Positions 6,927-13,904 of a DNA stretch of 64,000 nucleotides are shown piece after piece. The stretch is from Gammaproteobacteria bacterium. Its GTDB lineage: Bacteria > Pseudomonadota > Gammaproteobacteria > Pseudomonadales > Pseudohongiellaceae. The number at the start of each line of letters is the position of its first letter. Positions within the stretch are counted from its first letter, which is position 1. The translations under genes were made by a program, and so were the position numbers. The DNA lies in assembly GCA_012960305.1 (NCBI GenBank), contig DUBM01000020.1, positions 124,001-188,000 of the forward strand. Reading direction: 5' to 3'. The notes below the pieces were generated by a model. The model had not been told where the DNA came from and made no database searches. It saw only the letters and a program-made list of their open reading frames with translations.

Positions 6927-7562
6927 TCAACTCCCGCTTTTCTTCTTAAATTCACACAAATCCTCAATAACACAGGCGCTACAGCGTGGCTTGCGGGCGA
7001 CACAGATATACCGACCATGGAGAATTAACCAATGATGCACATCTAGCAAGAATTCTTCAGGCACCAATTTGACTAATCTTTTTTCCACTTCTAAAACATT
7101 TTTGCCTGGGGCGATTCCTGTGCGGTTTGAAATCCTAAAGATGTGAGTATCAACCGCTATAGCTATCTGGCGAAATGCGGTATTTAAGACCACGTTAGCG
7201 GTTTTTCTGCCAACCCCCGGGAGTGCTTCGAGTTCCTCTCGGGTGCTGGGAACTTGAGAATTATGATTCTGAATCAAGCTTTTGCAAGTCTTGATAATGT
7301 TTGCGGCCTTAGTGTTAAACAAGCCAATTGTCTTTATGTATTTCTTGAGGCCATTAACCTCCAAAGCAGCAATTTCTTCAGGAGTGCCGGCGACTTGATA
7401 GAGTTTTTCCGTGGCTTTGTTGACGCTCACATCTGTGGCTTGGGCAGAAAGGATGACTGATATTAGTAGTTCAAAATCACTAGTGAATTTCAATTCGGTT
7501 GTCGGCTCAGGATTTTCAGCTCTCAAGCGCTGAAATATTTCGGTCCTCTTCATCTTGTTCAT
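6927..7562 (-). CDS. nth: Endonuclease III
   Basis: A 211-residue bifunctional DNA glycosylase/AP lyase that removes oxidised pyrimidines. The helix-hairpin-helix LEALPGVGRKTANVVLN carries the catalytic lysine, VAVDTHIFRISNRTG carries the catalytic aspartate, and the C-terminal CVARKPRCSACVIEDLCEF supplies the C-x6-C-x2-C-x5-C [4Fe-4S] ligands. The start overlaps the end of rsxE by four bases, the usual position of nth at the end of rsx/rnf operons. Confidence 0.97.
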   Translation of the reverse strand: MNKMKRTEIFQRLRAENPEPTTELKFTSDFELLISVILSAQATDVSVNKATEKLYQVAGTPEEIAALEVNGLKKYIKTIGLFNTKAANIIKTCKSLIQNHNSQVPSTREELEALPGVGRKTANVVLNTAFRQIAIAVDTHIFRISNRTGIAPGKNVLEVEKRLVKLVPEEFLLDVHHWLILHGRYICVARKPRCSACVIEDLCEFKKKSGS

Positions 7563-8266
7563 ATTTTACCGGTCACTCTTGCTCGCTTTGCAGCTTGAGT
7601 ATCTATTTTAATTTTAGATGAGCCTATTCTACGTTTAGAATCGATTAGGTTTTTTGTAGCAATTATTAAACCTAAGATAATAAACGCAGCCGGTGGTAAT
7701 TTTGCGAAACTGAATAGTTCCTCCTGATTCGCATTGCCCTCAATGGAGAGTTTCACGAATTTAGGTCTCAGTAGATCTAAGTCGCCAAATATAGTCCCAG
7801 TAGATAAAGCTTCGCGTATTGCTGCTAGTAATAATATGGTAACTAGGAAACCGAAACCAACGATTAGATTATCTATAACAACCTTGGCAAGTTTTTTGGT
7901 GTGTAAACTGGCTTCAAGTCGCATGAGAATTACGACATTACAACAAATTAAAGAAAGATAGATTCCTAATTCCTTTGAGAGTGCAAAGAAGTAGAGCTGG
8001 ACAATTAGATCGACAATGCTGGTGGCTGCAGCCGCGATGGTTCCGAACCATAGCCATCGCCAACTTTGCGCAATCTGGTGTTTGCAGAGGCTTACTACAA
8101 CGGAGGAGAGGAGCAATACGAACATACTAGCTATCCCCAAGGCCAAGCCTGTGGCAAAGCTGGTGGAAATAGCCAGCACCGGACTGAGACCGAGCAACTG
8201 AACTAAGACTGGATTGTTATTCCAGATCGAGGGTGATTGCTGGGAATAATAATTTGCCCTGCTCAT
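7559..8266 (-). CDS. rsxE: RsxE/RnfE subunit lacking the usual iron-sulfur cysteines
   Basis: A 235-residue polytopic membrane protein of the RnfE/NqrD family, about the usual length. Conserved segments include NNNPVLVQLLGL, ELGIYLSLI and LPPAAFIILGLIIA. In known Rsx/Rnf complexes RnfE and RnfA each supply two cysteines to an intramembrane [2Fe-2S] cluster. Here the first site reads LLGLSP (Ser28 where LLGLCP is usual). The second reads ICCNVV (Val111 where the TNC cysteine is usual), with Cys108-Cys109 displaced upstream. I checked both on the DNA. It overlaps rsxD by four bases, leaving no room for rsxG, and overlaps nth downstream. Confidence 0.9.
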   Translation of the reverse strand: MSRANYYSQQSPSIWNNNPVLVQLLGLSPVLAISTSFATGLALGIASMFVLLLSSVVVSLCKHQIAQSWRWLWFGTIAAAATSIVDLIVQLYFFALSKELGIYLSLICCNVVILMRLEASLHTKKLAKVVIDNLIVGFGFLVTILLLAAIREALSTGTIFGDLDLLRPKFVKLSIEGNANQEELFSFAKLPPAAFIILGLIIATKNLIDSKRRIGSSKIKIDTQAAKRARVTGKI

Positions 8267-9387
8267 GAATCCATGCCTAGATCACCGTCGCTGCCTTTAC
8301 CAGCAGGTCCTGCAACGCCTTTCTTGTGACCATAGATTCGTGGACGAAGAAAGTGGTCTAACAGGGGAGCGGAAAAATTTCCTAGTAATACAGCTATCGC
8401 AATAGAGTCTAAATAGTTTCCCCAAACTCTTACGCTGTAAATGCTTAAACCAATTATCATCCCGTAAACCAGTTTCCCTTTACTAGTAGTTGCTGCGCTG
8501 ACTGGATCGGTGGCAATAAAAAAAGCGCCGATCATTGTGGCACTGCCGAACAAGTGCAAATAAGGAGTTCCGTAAATTGTATAACCACCCGGGGAATAAA
8601 ATAAAATTGATAGGGTTAGTACAGTAGCAATGACAGCCGCTGGGATATGCCAACTTATGATGCGCTGCAAGAGTAAGAAACAACCACCGAAAAAGTAGCC
8701 AATATTAACCAGTTCCCACGCTGTTTCCGAGCTTCGTGAGAACATCGATTGGTCAGTTTGCCAGGCTGCCAGAAGTTTGCTGGTGCCAGCTAGTTTTGAC
8801 TCAATTAAAGGAGTTGCCATAGCTAAACCGTCTATAAGTTCATTAGAACTAAAGGTGCTGAGGTTAAGAAACGGGAAGCTGAGCTGCAGGCTTTGTTGCA
8901 GACCAGACAGACTTATGGGAGCAAATTCCTGCACGTCACTTAGAGCATCGCTGGGGATATGCCAGCTAGTCATCTCCAGGGGAAAGCAGAGCAGTAAAAA
9001 CAAATAGCCACACATTGCTGGATTAAATGGGTTCTGACCGAGGCCTCCGTATATGTGTTTGGCGATCAATATGGCGAAGCCCATACCTAAGAATGGTATC
9101 CACCAGGGTGATCCTGGAGGAATTGCAAGACCAAATAAAACCGCCGCAACCAATGCGCTATTATCAGCTAATATGGCCTGAATGTGGCGTTCCCTTAGGC
9201 TGACCGCAGCAGCTTCAAAACTTAGAGCAAATGCGATCGACAGGAGCACATTAACCAGAATGCCGTAACCAAAATACCAGGTCGATATACTAATACCTGG
9301 AATGCAAGCGGCGACTACCATCAACATAATATTGTTTGTGCTGTGACGAGCATGCTGAAATGGAGAAGACTGTGGCGAGGATGTCAT
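8263..9387 (-). CDS. rsxD: RsxD/RnfD subunit, covalent-FMN membrane protein
   Basis: A 374-residue membrane protein of the RnfD/NqrB family. Conserved segments: the N-terminal SPFQHARHSTNNIMLMV, KHIYGGLGQNPFNPAM, the flavinylation region IDGLAMATPL and FGSATMIGAFFIATDPVSA. Thr192, the residue that carries covalent FMN in the family, is present, although the motif reads A-M-A-T rather than S-x-A-T. The stop is followed by no rsxG; rsxE begins inside the last codons. The start abuts the rsxC stop with no gap. It is not fused to an RsxG domain. Confidence 0.93.
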   Translation of the reverse strand: MTSSPQSSPFQHARHSTNNIMLMVVAACIPGISISTWYFGYGILVNVLLSIAFALSFEAAAVSLRERHIQAILADNSALVAAVLFGLAIPPGSPWWIPFLGMGFAILIAKHIYGGLGQNPFNPAMCGYLFLLLCFPLEMTSWHIPSDALSDVQEFAPISLSGLQQSLQLSFPFLNLSTFSSNELIDGLAMATPLIESKLAGTSKLLAAWQTDQSMFSRSSETAWELVNIGYFFGGCFLLLQRIISWHIPAAVIATVLTLSILFYSPGGYTIYGTPYLHLFGSATMIGAFFIATDPVSAATTSKGKLVYGMIIGLSIYSVRVWGNYLDSIAIAVLLGNFSAPLLDHFLRPRIYGHKKGVAGPAGKGSDGDLGMDS

Positions 9388-11016
9388 CTATTTACTCGAC
9401 TCAGTATTTTCGTCACTGCTTGAAGCAATAAGTCTCGTCTTACGCTTTCTGACTCGATCAACTGCAGCGGCGATTTCTTTTTTTGCTGACTCCCGGGAAA
9501 ATGTTGGCAGCATGTTTTGCACGGTTGATCCCGCAGATTGAACAGCTTCATCAGTTTTTGCTACAGCGCCTCGCTTCTTAGATTCTCGGCTTGCTTCTTT
9601 GTCTTTCTTAGCTCGATATTGGTGATACTGAAAGCGCTGTTTCCATTGCGCGCTGCTCATTTCGTTTTTTAATTGATTCCCGATCTCTTCTTTGCTGGCT
9701 CGGTAATACTGCACGAGTGGAATGTTGCTTGGGCAAACATATGCGCAAGCACCGCATTCAATACAGTCGTTTAAGCCGTGACTAATTAGTTCGGAGTAAT
9801 ATTGACACTTAGCGTAGAGATACAACTGTTGGGGTAACAGTGATACTGGGCAGGCATCAGCGCAGAAACCGCAGCGAATACAAGCTTGCTCTAGGGCCGG
9901 AGGTGGAAATTCAGCATTGGAGGCTGCAATTATACAGCTTGTGGTTTTTAGAATTGGCACATCAGTTCGAGCTAGCTTAACCCCCATAAGGGATCCGCCC
10001 ATTAGTGTCATTGTATGGTCCTGTTGATTTAGGCCGCAGAGTTCCAGCAAATAATCAACAGAAGTGCCAATTAAAGTTTCAAAATTTTTCGGTGTTTGTA
10101 GAGCAGGCCCTGCCAGAGTAGTAATTCTGCTGATGCAAGGCTTTCCCTCAACAACGGCTTGGTAAGCAGCATACGCAGTGCCTACATTGTGCATGAGTAT
10201 TCCAATATCAGCAGGGTATTTGCCGCTGGGAACTTCCTTAGACGTTATTGTTTGAATTAACTGCTTCTCACTACCGGTGGGATATTTCGGTGCTACCTTT
10301 ATTAATTCAATTGGGCAATTTAATTGTGTTTGTTCCAGAGCTTCAATAGCATCAGTATTATTAGAATCTATGGCGATAACACAATGTTCAGCCATGCAAG
10401 CGGCTTGAAGAATTTTTGCGCCGAGGACTACTAGCTTAGCTTTTTCTCGCAAGAGAGCTTCATCAGCAGTGATATAAGGTTCGTTTTCCGCGGCGTTGAT
10501 GATTAGAAGTTTTACTGCTTTGCCTGAGCTAAGCTTTAGACGGTTTAAATATCCCTCTCCGCCAAGCCCAAATATTGCACCTTCTTCGATGAGCTTGGCT
10601 AATTCCAAATAACTAAGGGAGCAGTAATCAGTTATAGCATTGTGATCAATTTCTGCATCAAAACCGTCACTTTCAAGGAGGATGCACATTGACTCTTTAT
10701 TCAAGGGGCTTGGAATGGCAAAATTCTCGATGGCTCTAATCACCCCTGAAGTGGGTGCATGCAGATCAACTATACCGGTTGCTTCAGAACAGGCGATGGT
10801 TTGGTATTTAAGGACTTTGTCTCCAGGTTTGACTAATGGTTTAGTTCTAGTGCTTCCATGCTGAATCAAGGGCAGTATTAGTTCTCTAGGGATGGGTGTT
10901 GGCATTAGTCGTGATCTTAGGGTTGCCTGCTTGTAGTCTGGTGGTTTAATTCCTCCCGGTATTGGCGTACCCGCCTTACCACGCATGGCTCCAATAATGT
11001 TTTCCACAAGCCTCAT
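9388..11016 (-). CDS. rsxC: RsxC/RnfC subunit with an altered nucleotide/FMN loop
   Basis: A 542-residue cytoplasmic RnfC-type subunit, in relatives the NADH-oxidising flavoprotein. The order is barrel-like N-terminus (GGIKPP), Rossmann-like region, SLBB region and two ferredoxin motifs ([12 protein letters not shown] and [12 protein letters not shown]), both complete, then a short basic tail without the long Ala/Lys repeats of E. coli. The glycine loop, normally GLGGAGFPT, reads GLGGEGYLN, and the usual AAECEPYIT reads AAENEPYIT. These changes touch the FMN/NADH site of the family. I chose ATG at 11016 because it overlaps the rsxB stop (ATGA); an 18-codon longer frame exists upstream. Confidence 0.9.
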
Positions 11017-11606
11017 AGATCTGTTTCCAATGTATTGAATCTGGAATTTTGGATTTTTGGGGTTAGCCAATACCTAGGCTTAGGAGTGGGCAATAAAACC
11101 AAATCAATGCAATCAACAGGGCAGGGATCTATACACAGATCACAACCAGTGCATTCGCTAGAGATAACTGTATGCATGAGCTTTGGCCCACCGAGGATGG
11201 CATCTAATGGGCAGGCTTGAATGCATTTAGTGCAACCAATACATTCGTCTTCCCGAATTATCGCGGCTAATGGAGGTTGAAAAACTCCATGAGCAGGGTT
11301 GAGTCTGAATCCTGGTTCATTTACAAAATCTACCAGTTTAAGGATCGTTGGTTCGCCTCCAGGGGGGCACTTGTTAATCGCATCACCTCGGCTGATAGCG
11401 CGAGCATAGGGCAAACAGCCTTTGTAGCCACAGCGGCCACATTGAGTTTGGGGCAGATAGCTATTTATTTGATCTACCACAGATTTTTGCGCTAGATATT
11501 CCTGGCGCAAATATTTACGAACTAAAAGTAGTCTATGAGCTAAGAAAATAAAGATGCTGGCGGCTGCTACAAATTGGAAAAGTTGCTTATCAATGAATGC
11601 TTCCAC
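11013..11606 (-). CDS. rsxB: RsxB/RnfB iron-sulfur subunit
   Basis: A 197-residue protein: one N-terminal membrane helix, then the four-cysteine domain (CGRCGYKGC and NKCPPGG), then two ferredoxin motifs ([12 protein letters not shown] and [12 protein letters not shown]). All cluster ligands expected for RsxB are present, so this subunit looks fully functional as an electron carrier. The GTG at 11606 starts two bases after the rsxA stop; an in-frame codon further upstream would overlap rsxA. A ferredoxin-like subunit with intact motifs contrasts with the damaged sites in RsxA, RsxE and RsxC. Confidence 0.93.
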
Positions 11607-11608
11607 GG

Positions 11609-12184
11609 TTATATTAGTCCGGCCAGACCGATAAAACACATAGAAACAATGCCGGCGCTCACAAGTTGAATGGCAGGTCCGCGAAATACATCTGGAATAT
11701 CCATAGTATCCAAGCGTTGGCGTAACGCGGCGAAAGCAATGAGAACAATAGCAAAGCCTAAGGCAGAGCCGAAGCTATACGCCAAACTTTGGGAAACTGT
11801 GTGCACGCCCATGGCGCTTAATAAAGAGATTCCGATAACTGCGCTGTTAGCGCCAATCAGGTAGAAGGCTAGGTCGTGGCGGCGAATGGAGAGAGGAAAA
11901 TAGTCTTCAGCGCACTTATAACAAACAATCGTAAGAGTAGAGCTTATCCCGACAAAAACAATTAAGCGCAAGTAGGCTAACCCAATTGGGTTTAAGAAAA
12001 ACCGATAGATGATAAAATTTAGAAATGAGGATAAAAAAAGAACTATAAAACTGAATAGGGCGAGCTCGCAAGCGCTGCGTAGGCTATTGCTACTTGAAAA
12101 AAGAGTTGAAACGCCGAGTAGATTGACCAGAACCACATTATTTATCAATGCAGCGGCGATAATGACACCAAGTATTTCAATCAC
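11609..12184 (-). CDS. rsxA: RsxA/RnfA subunit lacking both iron-sulfur cysteines
   Basis: A 191-residue, six-helix membrane protein of the RnfA/NqrE family, taking the GTG at 12184 that gives the family length; the frame stays open to 12247. Conserved segments are [11 protein letters not shown], the NSAVIG region, [18 protein letters not shown] and [14 protein letters not shown]. In relatives the first site is GLCPF and the second TTNCAVLG, each giving one ligand to the intramembrane [2Fe-2S] cluster. Here they read GVSTL (Ser26) and GANSAVIG (Ser114). It is the first gene of the rsxABCDE-nth operon. Confidence 0.9.
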
Positions 12185-12303
12185 TAGATATGCAGTCCTG
12201 GAGTTTGTCCTATTTAGAAGCTCAATTTGGAAGTAAAAATTAACCAATCTGGCGCTGATCTAGTTTGTCATTCTATCACGGCTTGGTATCTCGGTAGACA
12301 GCT

Positions 12304-12392: not shown

Positions 12393-13904
12393 TTATTCCT
12401 CAAATAGCCCAACAGAATGTGCGGCAGGGATACGATACTGTGAGAGTATTTGCGACTCACTATCTATTGCATCTTCATGATTAATTACCATTTGATAGCC
12501 GTTTTTATTTTCAAACACGATGTCTTCCGTTTCATTGTTATTAATTAATGAAGCGAAATGGGAGAAATCTGTGATGGGTTCCCCATTCACAGATTCAACT
12601 ACCCAATTTCTCCAATCGTGATAACCCAGATTGACATCGCCAGCGAGGATTTGGAGTGCAACTACTAACTCGCGTCTTTCCGGTGAACTCCACTCGTTGC
12701 GCGCTTGTAATAGACTGACTGGAGCCGTGCGGCCCCAATCGGTGCCCCAACGTTTAATGAGATTCATATTCAACGGTACAAACAAAATGCCGCCATAAAT
12801 ATAATATTGCGGTATTTTGTCGAATTGCTCCCCCGCTACTAGGCTATAACTCTTCAGTGAGGGTTCGGCTAACAAGGTAGCAGTGTTGAATTTGCCATCC
12901 CGGGAGTAGCTAATTTCAATCGAATCATCAATATGGTGTAAATCTATCGCATGCTTGTAGTCGGTGAGCAAATCTTCCGACAATTTAATGCTGCCATCGT
13001 CAGCAATTTCAAATTCATCTATCTTCAAGATTACATCATTCTCTTGCAAAATTGCTTCAGCTGGAGAATCTTTAAAGACCTTGATAACCAGCACACCATC
13101 TTGGTGGGGTTCTAAACCATAGGCAGCTTTAGCTGATGGGCTATCGAGTGTTTGTGTCCTAAACCCGAGGTCGGGAAAGCCATCGTGCGCTCCATCTTCA
13201 GAATCTATTAGTACGTGTTGAATAATACTTGGCGGCACAAAATAGCCGAGGTTCTCGGCTCTGCCACCGCTATTCGCTTGCATAACCACTCCGACAATTT
13301 GTTGATCAACGATAACTGGCCCGCCACTATTTCCGGGGTTTATCGCGGCATCAATTTGGCCAGCAAGCAAGTAAGCTCCGGCGTGTGCATAGATTTGCTG
13401 TTCCACTCGAGAAAGAATCCCCTTGGTAATGCTCAAAGATTTGCCACCTATTGGATAGCCGTAGACAGAAACCTCTTGCAACGGGTCAGGGAGATCGCCG
13501 ATGGCTAGCGCCTTTAAGTCACTAAAGAAGCCAACTTCGTCGACAGTAATGAGAGCTAAATCGGCTTCGTGGGAAATAAAAACTACCCGGGCTTGGTACC
13601 TACGTGGATCATTGTGCTTTTGTGCTTGAACGTAGCTGGCATTAGCAACGACGTGGGCGTTTGTTAAAATTCGATTGCCAGTAATTACAGATCCGGAACC
13701 ACTGCTTTGTCGGGGGGTTAGTAATCGCCATGGGGTAAAGTAATCAGGCGCTGCTTGTGTGGTGTAAATCTTAATGACCGAGTCTTCAATTGCTCTAATT
13801 TCATTGTTTTGAGCGAGAGCTGAATTGGAAATTCCGAATAAAAATGACAGTAGCCAAAGCGCCGGAAGTATTTTGTACAAACGGCGAGCGTTAATAATAA
13901 TCAT
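12393..13904 (-). CDS. Exported HtrA/Deg-like serine protease with PDZ domains
   Basis: 503 residues with a signal peptide (basic start, hydrophobic core, cleavage after NSALA), so probably periplasmic. A trypsin-like domain (about residues 45-235) has the complete triad: His in LTNAHVV, Asp in HEADLALI and Ser in NPGNSGGPV. A PDZ-like region follows (about 260-350, DGVLVIKVFKDSPAE), and a second PDZ-like stretch near the C-terminus (VVESVNGEPITDFSHF). The long linker makes it resemble plant-type Deg proteases more than DegP or DegS. AGAAGG seven bases before the ATG supports the start. It is a single-gene unit with its own terminator. Confidence 0.85.
   Translation of the reverse strand: MIIINARRLYKILPALWLLSFLFGISNSALAQNNEIRAIEDSVIKIYTTQAAPDYFTPWRLLTPRQSSGSGSVITGNRILTNAHVVANASYVQAQKHNDPRRYQARVVFISHEADLALITVDEVGFFSDLKALAIGDLPDPLQEVSVYGYPIGGKSLSITKGILSRVEQQIYAHAGAYLLAGQIDAAINPGNSGGPVIVDQQIVGVVMQANSGGRAENLGYFVPPSIIQHVLIDSEDGAHDGFPDLGFRTQTLDSPSAKAAYGLEPHQDGVLVIKVFKDSPAEAILQENDVILKIDEFEIADDGSIKLSEDLLTDYKHAIDLHHIDDSIEISYSRDGKFNTATLLAEPSLKSYSLVAGEQFDKIPQYYIYGGILFVPLNMNLIKRWGTDWGRTAPVSLLQARNEWSSPERRELVVALQILAGDVNLGYHDWRNWVVESVNGEPITDFSHFASLINNNETEDIVFENKNGYQMVINHEDAIDSESQILSQYRIPAAHSVGLFEE

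Follow-up and report, generated by a model that had tools for sequence, protein, structure and literature searches.

An Rsx/Rnf operon lacking the cysteine ligands of its intramembrane [2Fe-2S] cluster in a Pseudohongiella-like gammaproteobacterium

The Rnf complex passes electrons along an established route, from RnfB to the [2Fe-2S] cluster of the RnfA/RnfE pair, to the flavin mononucleotide (FMN) of RnfG on the outside, to the flavins of RnfD and on to RnfC (PMC12174285). In those parts of the published work on which we draw, the ligands of this cluster are named as C25 and C113 of RnfA and C25 and C108 of RnfE in A. woodii (PMC11889175), the four A/E cysteines are called invariant and their region strictly conserved (PMC9588780), mutation of the cluster cysteines is stated to abolish both ferredoxin:NAD+ activity and autotrophic growth in A. 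woodii, and Na+ is described as bound beside the cluster (both PMC11889175). Here we analyzed an rsxABCDE operon, a member of the Rsx/Rnf family, in which all four of these ligands are replaced; it lies on a 64,000-nucleotide stretch of DNA (hereafter the window; positions 124,001 to 188,000 of contig DUBM01000020.1, assembly GCA_012960305.1) from a Pseudohongiella-like lineage that is mostly marine and uncultured. Genomes are designated by G-numbers (G000 being the window genome, 97.3% complete), loci by L-numbers, and genera and families by g and f labels; genus g1 comprises 84 genomes within a family search of 137.

Replacement of the four cluster ligands

The ligand columns were set by profile alignment to solved structures, with RnfA C25/C113 and RnfE C25/C108 of A. 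woodii as reference, and at these columns the window carries serine and serine in RsxA (motifs GVST and GANSA) and serine and valine in RsxE (motifs GLSP and CCNVV). At the level of sequence, this confirms the loss of all four intramembrane [2Fe-2S] ligands, as had been proposed in an earlier note made from the same letters alone; the alignment and genome count that it called for found no cysteine at any readable ligand position among the 42 g1 genomes that hold all or part of the operon. In this survey the first RsxA position was serine in 37 of 38 genomes (proline once), the second likewise in 37 of 38 (glycine once), and the first RsxE position in 39 of 39, with the second RsxE position being occupied by phenylalanine (15), valine (13), isoleucine (8), methionine (1) or leucine (1) and by cysteine in none of 38. 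Because three of the substitutions are near-fixed across 42 genomes of one genus and the fourth position is never cysteine, we do not consider them to be a product of chance. A scan of named genome contigs, from which the best 80 of 95 relatives were taken, yielded 35 with the g1 pattern at all positions seen, two variants (L090 and L091) and 43 with both RsxA cysteines.

The position equivalent to RnfA K32 was variable in g1 (asparagine in 12 and lysine in 10 of 38). Single-chain AlphaFold models of RsxA and RsxE, which are of moderate confidence (mean predicted local distance difference test score 72.5 each; predicted template modeling scores 0.69 and 0.67), would place RsxA (residues 21-212) closest to RnfA of 8ahx/9eri and RsxE closest to RnfE of 8ahx/9eri and to NqrD.

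On the minus strand the operon runs A, B, C, D, E and then nth, with all frames open in the window's list of open reading frames (ORFs), an arrangement shared, rsxG apart, with E. coli rsx and its downstream nth. The features are as follows.

11609..12247, minus strand: rsxA, 212 residues, TTG start as listed (the true start may be further in); ORF with a PF02508 match of 94.8 bits; forms half of the RnfA/E dimer, with none of the cluster ligands
12107..12109, minus strand: Ser47 of RsxA, column of A. woodii RnfA C25 (cluster ligand)
11843..11845, minus strand: Ser135 of RsxA, column of A. woodii RnfA C113 (cluster ligand)
11013..11639, minus strand: rsxB, 208 residues, GTG start as listed; ORF with Pfam support
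Within 11013..11639, minus strand: the 13 conserved cysteines of RsxB, all present by profile alignment (67, 70, 75, 91, 133, 136, 139, 143, 163, 166, 169, 173, 177)
9388..11070, minus strand: rsxC, 560 residues, TTG start as listed; NADH/FMN-type domain (NADH, reduced nicotinamide adenine dinucleotide) with an altered loop, GGEGYLN, and two 4Fe-4S motifs
Within 9388..11070, minus strand: 4Fe-4S motif cysteines of RsxC (397, 400, 403, 407 and 436, 439, 442, 446)
8263..9387, minus strand: rsxD, 374 residues; FMN-threonine motif DGLAMATPL and the asparagine and aspartate columns of the riboflavin site kept
7559..8266, minus strand: rsxE, 235 residues; the other dimer half, without ligands; C-terminal tail KRARVTGKI
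8183..8185, minus strand: Ser28 of RsxE, column of A. woodii RnfE C25 (cluster ligand)
7934..7936, minus strand: Val111 of RsxE, column of A. woodii RnfE C108 (cluster ligand)
7940..7945, minus strand: Cys108-Cys109 of RsxE (the CC pair), off the ligand column
6927..7562, minus strand: nth (endonuclease III), its ATG overlapping the rsxE stop; conserved neighbor
12393..13904, minus strand: DegP/DO-like trypsin-PDZ protease (ORF, Pfam), upstream neighbor conserved in g1

By Pfam, NCBIfam and gene order, all five subunits belong to the right families and stand in Rnf/Rsx order: RsxA and RsxE match PF02508, RsxD PF03116, RsxC the Complex1_51K, RnfC_N and Fe-S domains, and RsxB Fe-S domains. The RsxC match to PF01512 reached 126.8 bits with the loop GGAGFPT altered to GGEGYLN. 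NCBIfam agrees on the families, with RsxA (123.7 against a cut-off of 240; 120.2 against 229.3) and RsxE (181.7 against 184; 149.3 against 213.4) scoring under the curated cut-offs. Within the reach of each contig, loci L032-L045 and L056-L090 have the order DO-A-B-C-D-E-nth as well. The RsxE tail (window 7562-7588), which reads K/R-R-A/V-R-V-T-G, occurs in most cysteine-less loci; we rejected it as a new trait, given that several four-cysteine relatives (not those of g123) carry it as well.

Two further loci touch on ligand loss. L091 (PMCP01000144.1, from a fen gammaproteobacterium) holds A, D, G and E between metG and nth with no match to B or C, and has lost three of the four cluster cysteines (GVDA, NSAV, GLSP, ANC), with a run of N in part of D; it is apparently an independent case of ligand loss. 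L270 (G182), from another family of the order, reads GVDP and GNAG in RsxA and has one cysteine left in RsxE, with a G-like ORF kept and no RseC match.

Missing RsxG and RseC, and the redox sites that remain

There is no rsxG in the window operon, whose D and E genes share 4 bases. The distance between D and E did not exceed 79 nucleotides in g1 relatives where it was measurable, and in loci outside g1 it was at least 528 nucleotides, apart from those of Clostridia (Lachnospiraceae among them) whose D frames are long, presumably as D-G fusions, and whose gap ranged from -13 to 145 nucleotides. Three FMN_bind matches were found in G000, all on contigs other than that of the operon: a 177-residue ORF beside porin-like and PepSY-like ORFs, one of 247 residues, and a NosR-like one of 688 residues (these likenesses, and that of the NuoA-C-like ORFs mentioned below, are our own reading of the ORFs). 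Since rsxG is absent from the operon, the electron acceptor of the A/E cluster would have gone along with the cluster.

RseC (PF04246) scored over the cut-off in none of the 84 g1 genomes, the single sub-cut-off match, in G012, containing four stops, and no PF04246 match was found in G000. Of the 137 genomes in the family search, 14 had an RseC match over the cut-off, comprising all six of g119, all five of g123 and three of the 11 of g24 (G328, G329, G332). In ten of these 14, A and E could be read at the nth locus and had all four cysteines; only the E pair, intact, was seen in the other four (G337, G338, G340, G341), and none of the 14 had a ligand read as missing in its nth-locus A or E. 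An order-level set of 293 genomes contains 244 with an RnfA-grade match, of which 231 have RseC, vs. 6 of the 49 without one; the 231 were counted by matches with ligands unread, such that cysteine loss with RseC kept could exist among them. The 13 genomes with RnfA and no RseC comprise five that have lost ligands (G000, G172, G279, G299 and, with three of four lost, G182), four under 90% complete (G038, G089, G143, G262), three from a family with weak RseC matches (G075, G214, G275), and G054, a four-cysteine genome, 97% complete, for which we have no explanation.

Several genomes speak against a strict link between RseC and the cluster. Rnf with all ligands read and all four cysteines occurs without an RseC match in G054, G075, G214, G275 and G143 (87% complete), and the ligands were partly read in G038, G089 and G262, which also lack RseC. 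Within the family, G380, G382 and G384 each carry a second RNF locus with four cysteines and give no RseC match. Conversely, RseC was found without an RnfA-grade match in G098, G151, G199, G221, G281 and G283, where a direct PF02508 search gave Rnf-type matches in G221, a strong match besides the pair belonging to the Na+-NQR complex (NQR) in G281, the NQR pair only in G283, and nothing in G098, G151 and G199. G330 (three of four cysteines) and G334 (where the E pair alone was seen, and is intact) had no RseC match and are 73% and 77% complete. As for the second RNF loci themselves, L183 (G382) and L184 (G380) read CDGEA, and L227 (G384) reads DGEA on a contig that starts in D, all with four cysteines and no RnfB among the matches; the ORF ahead of CDGEA in L183 resembles, in our reading, a 2-oxoacid:ferredoxin oxidoreductase.

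In a tree of Nth, RsxB and RsxD, g1 and g23 form one clade (Shimodaira-Hasegawa-like approximate likelihood ratio test, 100), with further losses in g24 and G182, implying at least five changes of cysteine state and at least four of RseC. An independent-pairs test of RseC against cysteine state gave a median p of 0.25 and, having only 3 usable pairs, was unable to reach significance. Despite the counterexamples, the way RseC tracks Rnf over the 293 genomes, and intact nth-locus cysteines within the family, suggests that RseC serves the intramembrane cluster; the cases of cholerae and A. woodii speak against an absolute need for it. In the parts of the sources considered here, RseC is given a regulatory role in C. 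ljungdahlii (PMC9124969) and described as a component of the SoxR-reducing system that depends on its cysteines and can form an Fe-S cluster (PMC11729352), a Zymomonas gene that is possibly rnfF/rseC shows cofitness with rnf genes (PMC10746277), and NqrM is assigned to cluster insertion in NQR (PMC12174285).

SoxR over the TIGR01950 cut-off was present in 4 of the 37 genomes searched, with none in G000, and we accordingly rejected SoxR reduction as a conserved role; for want of such a match, SoxR is an unlikely partner in the window genome. G000 has two PF02424 (ApbE) matches.

The cofactor sites outside A and E are retained. In the 42-genome survey, the 13 cysteines of RsxB were kept wherever the position was present, the eight of the RsxC ferredoxin domain in 36 of 36, 37 of 37 or 36 of 37 genomes, and in RsxD the FMN-threonine in 41 of 41 and the riboflavin-site asparagine and aspartate in 40 and 39 of 41, these last being the columns of A. 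woodii N123 and D249 by RsxD profile alignment. The GGAG loop of RsxC (GGAGFPT) is kept in most of g1; L090 and L201 have lost it, and the window has GGEGYLN in its place. In addition, the ratio of nonsynonymous to synonymous substitution rates (dN/dS) was 0.05-0.35 for rsxA over 16 overlapping g1 pairs and 0.12-0.38 for rsxE in 14 of the 16 (the other two being saturated); the highest value in g1, 0.40, belonged to rsxB of one pair, so that all five genes lie well below 1, in pairs that overlap and of which some have a dS above 1.5. The Rsx genes are under purifying selection in close g1 relatives. The synonymous sites of the window's own two pairs were saturated vs. both relatives. The statement of the earlier note that this is not simple decay thus holds for close g1 pairs, and it is tempered by this saturation and by the signs of erosion among relatives. 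On the dN/dS values we rejected simple pseudogene decay for the g1 form taken as a whole; the single genomes G007, G379, G389 and G415 do look broken.

Proposed function of the reduced complex

Loss of rsxG and rseC turns what would otherwise be a case of lost ligands into one in which the transmembrane relay is gone. Because the cluster and RnfG are both absent, the membrane crossing of the established route would have disappeared, and the complex probably no longer pumps ions. As judged from sequence, four ligands have been lost, the operon has no rsxG, RseC goes undetected, the cofactor residues of B, C and D are kept, and selection in relatives is purifying. We postulate that the ion-pumping transmembrane half (the A/E [2Fe-2S] cluster, RsxG and RseC) was removed and that a membrane-tethered, uncoupled Fe-S wire has been kept under selection, a reading of function that we regard as evenly poised between right and wrong. 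The remaining wire would consist of RsxC (an NADH/FMN-type domain and two 4Fe-4S clusters), the Fe-S domains of RsxB, the flavin residues of RsxD and a cluster-free A/E scaffold. The Rsx complex would still assemble; ion-coupled transfer from ferredoxin to NAD+ by the known route would be impossible, and electrons may move among RsxC, RsxB, possibly the flavins of D, and a cytoplasmic partner without crossing A/E.

In favor of a retained Fe-S wire, several relatives without the NADH/FMN domain still have RsxB and the ferredoxin domain of RsxC. These are the parts kept most often, exceptions being L091 (no B or C match), G379 (no B), G007 and possibly G182. An RsxB fused to the RsxC ferredoxin domain, the NADH/FMN part being absent, was found in L170, L173-L175, L192, L193 and L195 (g119, g123), in G329 and G330 of g24 (listed loci L216 and L217) and in L271-L273 of f40, some of these fusion ORFs having been judged by motif counts alone; the fusion occurs both with and without the A/E cysteines, with no separate NADH/FMN rsxC at the locus.

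A number of findings weigh against this reading. No PF02508 match was found in 17 of 37 g1 genomes, of which six were at least 90% complete and 11 under 90%, two genomes of the same 37 (G024, G027) hold only the NQR pair, and G007 retains a remnant, DO-A-(B fragment)-nth; on these grounds the operon is dispensable. In two g1 genomes RsxC is split into overlapping ORFs, two in L229/G389 and three in L239/G415, by mutation or assembly error. A substitute for RsxG could be encoded elsewhere, in view of the three FMN_bind ORFs on other contigs. The N-terminal cluster domain of RsxB, whose known partner is the lost cluster, is fully kept, as are the flavin residues of RsxD, and a purely cytoplasmic wire leaves both unexplained. 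Lastly, some relatives, g1 members among them, have lost the NADH/FMN part or show erosion in it: in G172 (L197) it is gone and RsxB is joined to the ferredoxin domain of RsxC, and the loop has disappeared from L090 and L201 and is altered in the window; NADH may therefore not be the donor.

Since the relatives have eroded, slow loss is a serious rival to a new function, and we consider it possible, although the less probable of the two. Under this account the pump is no longer needed, the operon is being lost piecewise under weakening selection, and the cysteine-less form is a long-lived, nearly functionless intermediate. Besides the missing PF02508 matches, the G007 remnant and the broken RsxC just described, G379 has no match to B or E, some g1 genomes have NQR as an alternative, and NuoA-C-like ORFs are found in G000. 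Genus g24 ranges from ABCDGE with four cysteines (G328, G332) to partial ligand losses that differ between genomes with G kept (G279, G299, G335, G330). Genus g23 ranges from ABCDE without G and without ligands (G080, G345, G348, G349, G352) to a more reduced form that has B, a C consisting of the ferredoxin domain alone and a short D in which the threonine motif is missing, with E giving no match (G218, G346, G347, with G350 alike on a lesser reading); in the corresponding loci L180-L182 and L222 (G218, G347, G346, G350), RsxA is diverged or unrecognised. RsxA also outpaced nth in nonsynonymous divergence (dN) in three cysteine-lost pairs (0.40 vs. 0.09 in L166/L167, 0.19 vs. 0.02 in L178/L203, 0.41 vs. 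0.06 in L181/L182), unlike four four-cysteine pairs (0.01-0.10 vs. 0.05-0.16). However, RsxA is not faster everywhere: two close cysteine-lost pairs differ little (0.02 vs. 0.01 in L203/L204; 0.02 vs. 0.00 in L203/L220), the mixed pair L216/L217 gave 0.18 vs. 0.07, and the A-to-nth dN ratios within g1 ran from about 0.07 to 4.8. Slow loss also sits poorly with dN/dS well below 1 in all five genes of g1 pairs, with a Ser-Ser-Ser pattern near-fixed across 42 genomes, and with the Fe-S and flavin ligands retained outside A and E. The kept RsxB N-terminal domain and RsxD flavin residues are explained neither by a wire nor by erosion.

That A and E have become a cluster-free, alternating-access ion carrier or channel, with serine at three of the four kink positions and driven or gated by B or D, strikes us as improbable. 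Serine is indeed near-fixed, rather than varying, at three ligand positions, Na+ adjoins the cluster of A. woodii in the portion of PMC11889175 drawn on here, and the fold would be retained in our moderate-confidence models; but serine may simply be the nearest replacement for cysteine, other residues stand at these places in g23 (GLEA, SLAS), and A and E evolve faster than nth in several pairs.

More improbable still is that the CC pair of RsxE, together with other residues, holds a substitute cluster or metal and leaves the original route intact, a partial substitution that the earlier note had entertained. The two cysteines sit 3 and 2 residues before the RsxE ligand column, and that two before it is present in 36 of 38 g1 genomes; but the first is variable (C, S or A) in the alignment of relatives, no conserved cysteine was found in the g1 RsxA alignment, and one conserved cysteine is too few for a [2Fe-2S] cluster of known type, with neither rsxG, encoding the acceptor of the cluster, nor RseC having been found. 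We rejected the pair as a replacement cluster, being off the ligand column and with its first cysteine unconserved. An ordinary Rnf whose substitutions are artefacts of assembly or alignment has a negligible probability and was rejected, as the same replacements are common to assemblies from many projects and the columns are anchored by alignment to solved structures.

Returning to the uncoupled Fe-S wire, we advance, tentatively and knowing that it may well be wrong, the joint proposal that the ion pump was cut from Rnf and the rest selected as an uncoupled electron-transfer machine, and that the linked losses mark RseC as a dedicated factor for the [2Fe-2S] cluster in the membrane, a role comparable to that of NqrM in NQR. 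Taken as a whole, the interpretation in the earlier note stands as to ligand loss, and the genes are under purifying selection in close relatives; it finds no support as to the CC pair, and it had omitted the losses of rsxG and rseC and the erosion in relatives.

Implications and comparison with known systems

The loss of four cysteines and of the flavin shuttle, with the other subunits under selection, suggests that Rnf can be kept for a non-pumping role. A 2025 review asks, in the part drawn on here, why E. coli should spend an ion gradient on SoxR reduction when NADH would suffice (PMC12174285); a naturally pump-less Rsx would offer a direct comparison for that question, as well as a natural test of the remaining parts. 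Moreover, the role of RseC is unsettled between regulator and part of the SoxR reducer, and because RseC has been lost together with the cysteines, its service to the intramembrane cluster becomes testable.

In the titles, abstract openings and passages searched (preprints and most subscription papers being outside them), no Rnf is described that lacks the A/E cysteines or that lacks RnfG, in keeping with the earlier note, which knew of none with these replacements. Compared with E. coli Rsx and A. vinelandii Rnf (PDB 8ahx), the window shares the order A-B-C-D-E followed by nth, the five families, the Fe-S ligands of B and C and the flavin residues of RsxD, but lacks rsxG, an RseC match and the four A/E ligands, with RsxA and RsxE under the NCBIfam cut-offs. 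The Rnf complexes of A. woodii and C. tetanomorphum (PDB 9eri, 7zc6), which translocate Na+, have homologous A, D and E subunits with alignable ligand columns, and the window lacks all four of the cysteines that the cited passages call invariant (PMC9588780) and essential to activity on mutation (PMC11889175). Na+-NQR shares the A/E-like and D-like core (NqrE, NqrD, NqrB), whereas the window has B and C of Rnf type, and G000 has only two Rnf-type PF02508 matches and no second pair. The other eroded Rnf loci of the order (g119, g123, g23, g24, f40, G182), together with L091, also mostly stand beside nth and have lost other parts; in g119 and g123, four cysteines and G are kept but RsxB and the ferredoxin domain of RsxC form a fusion, which is not so in the window.

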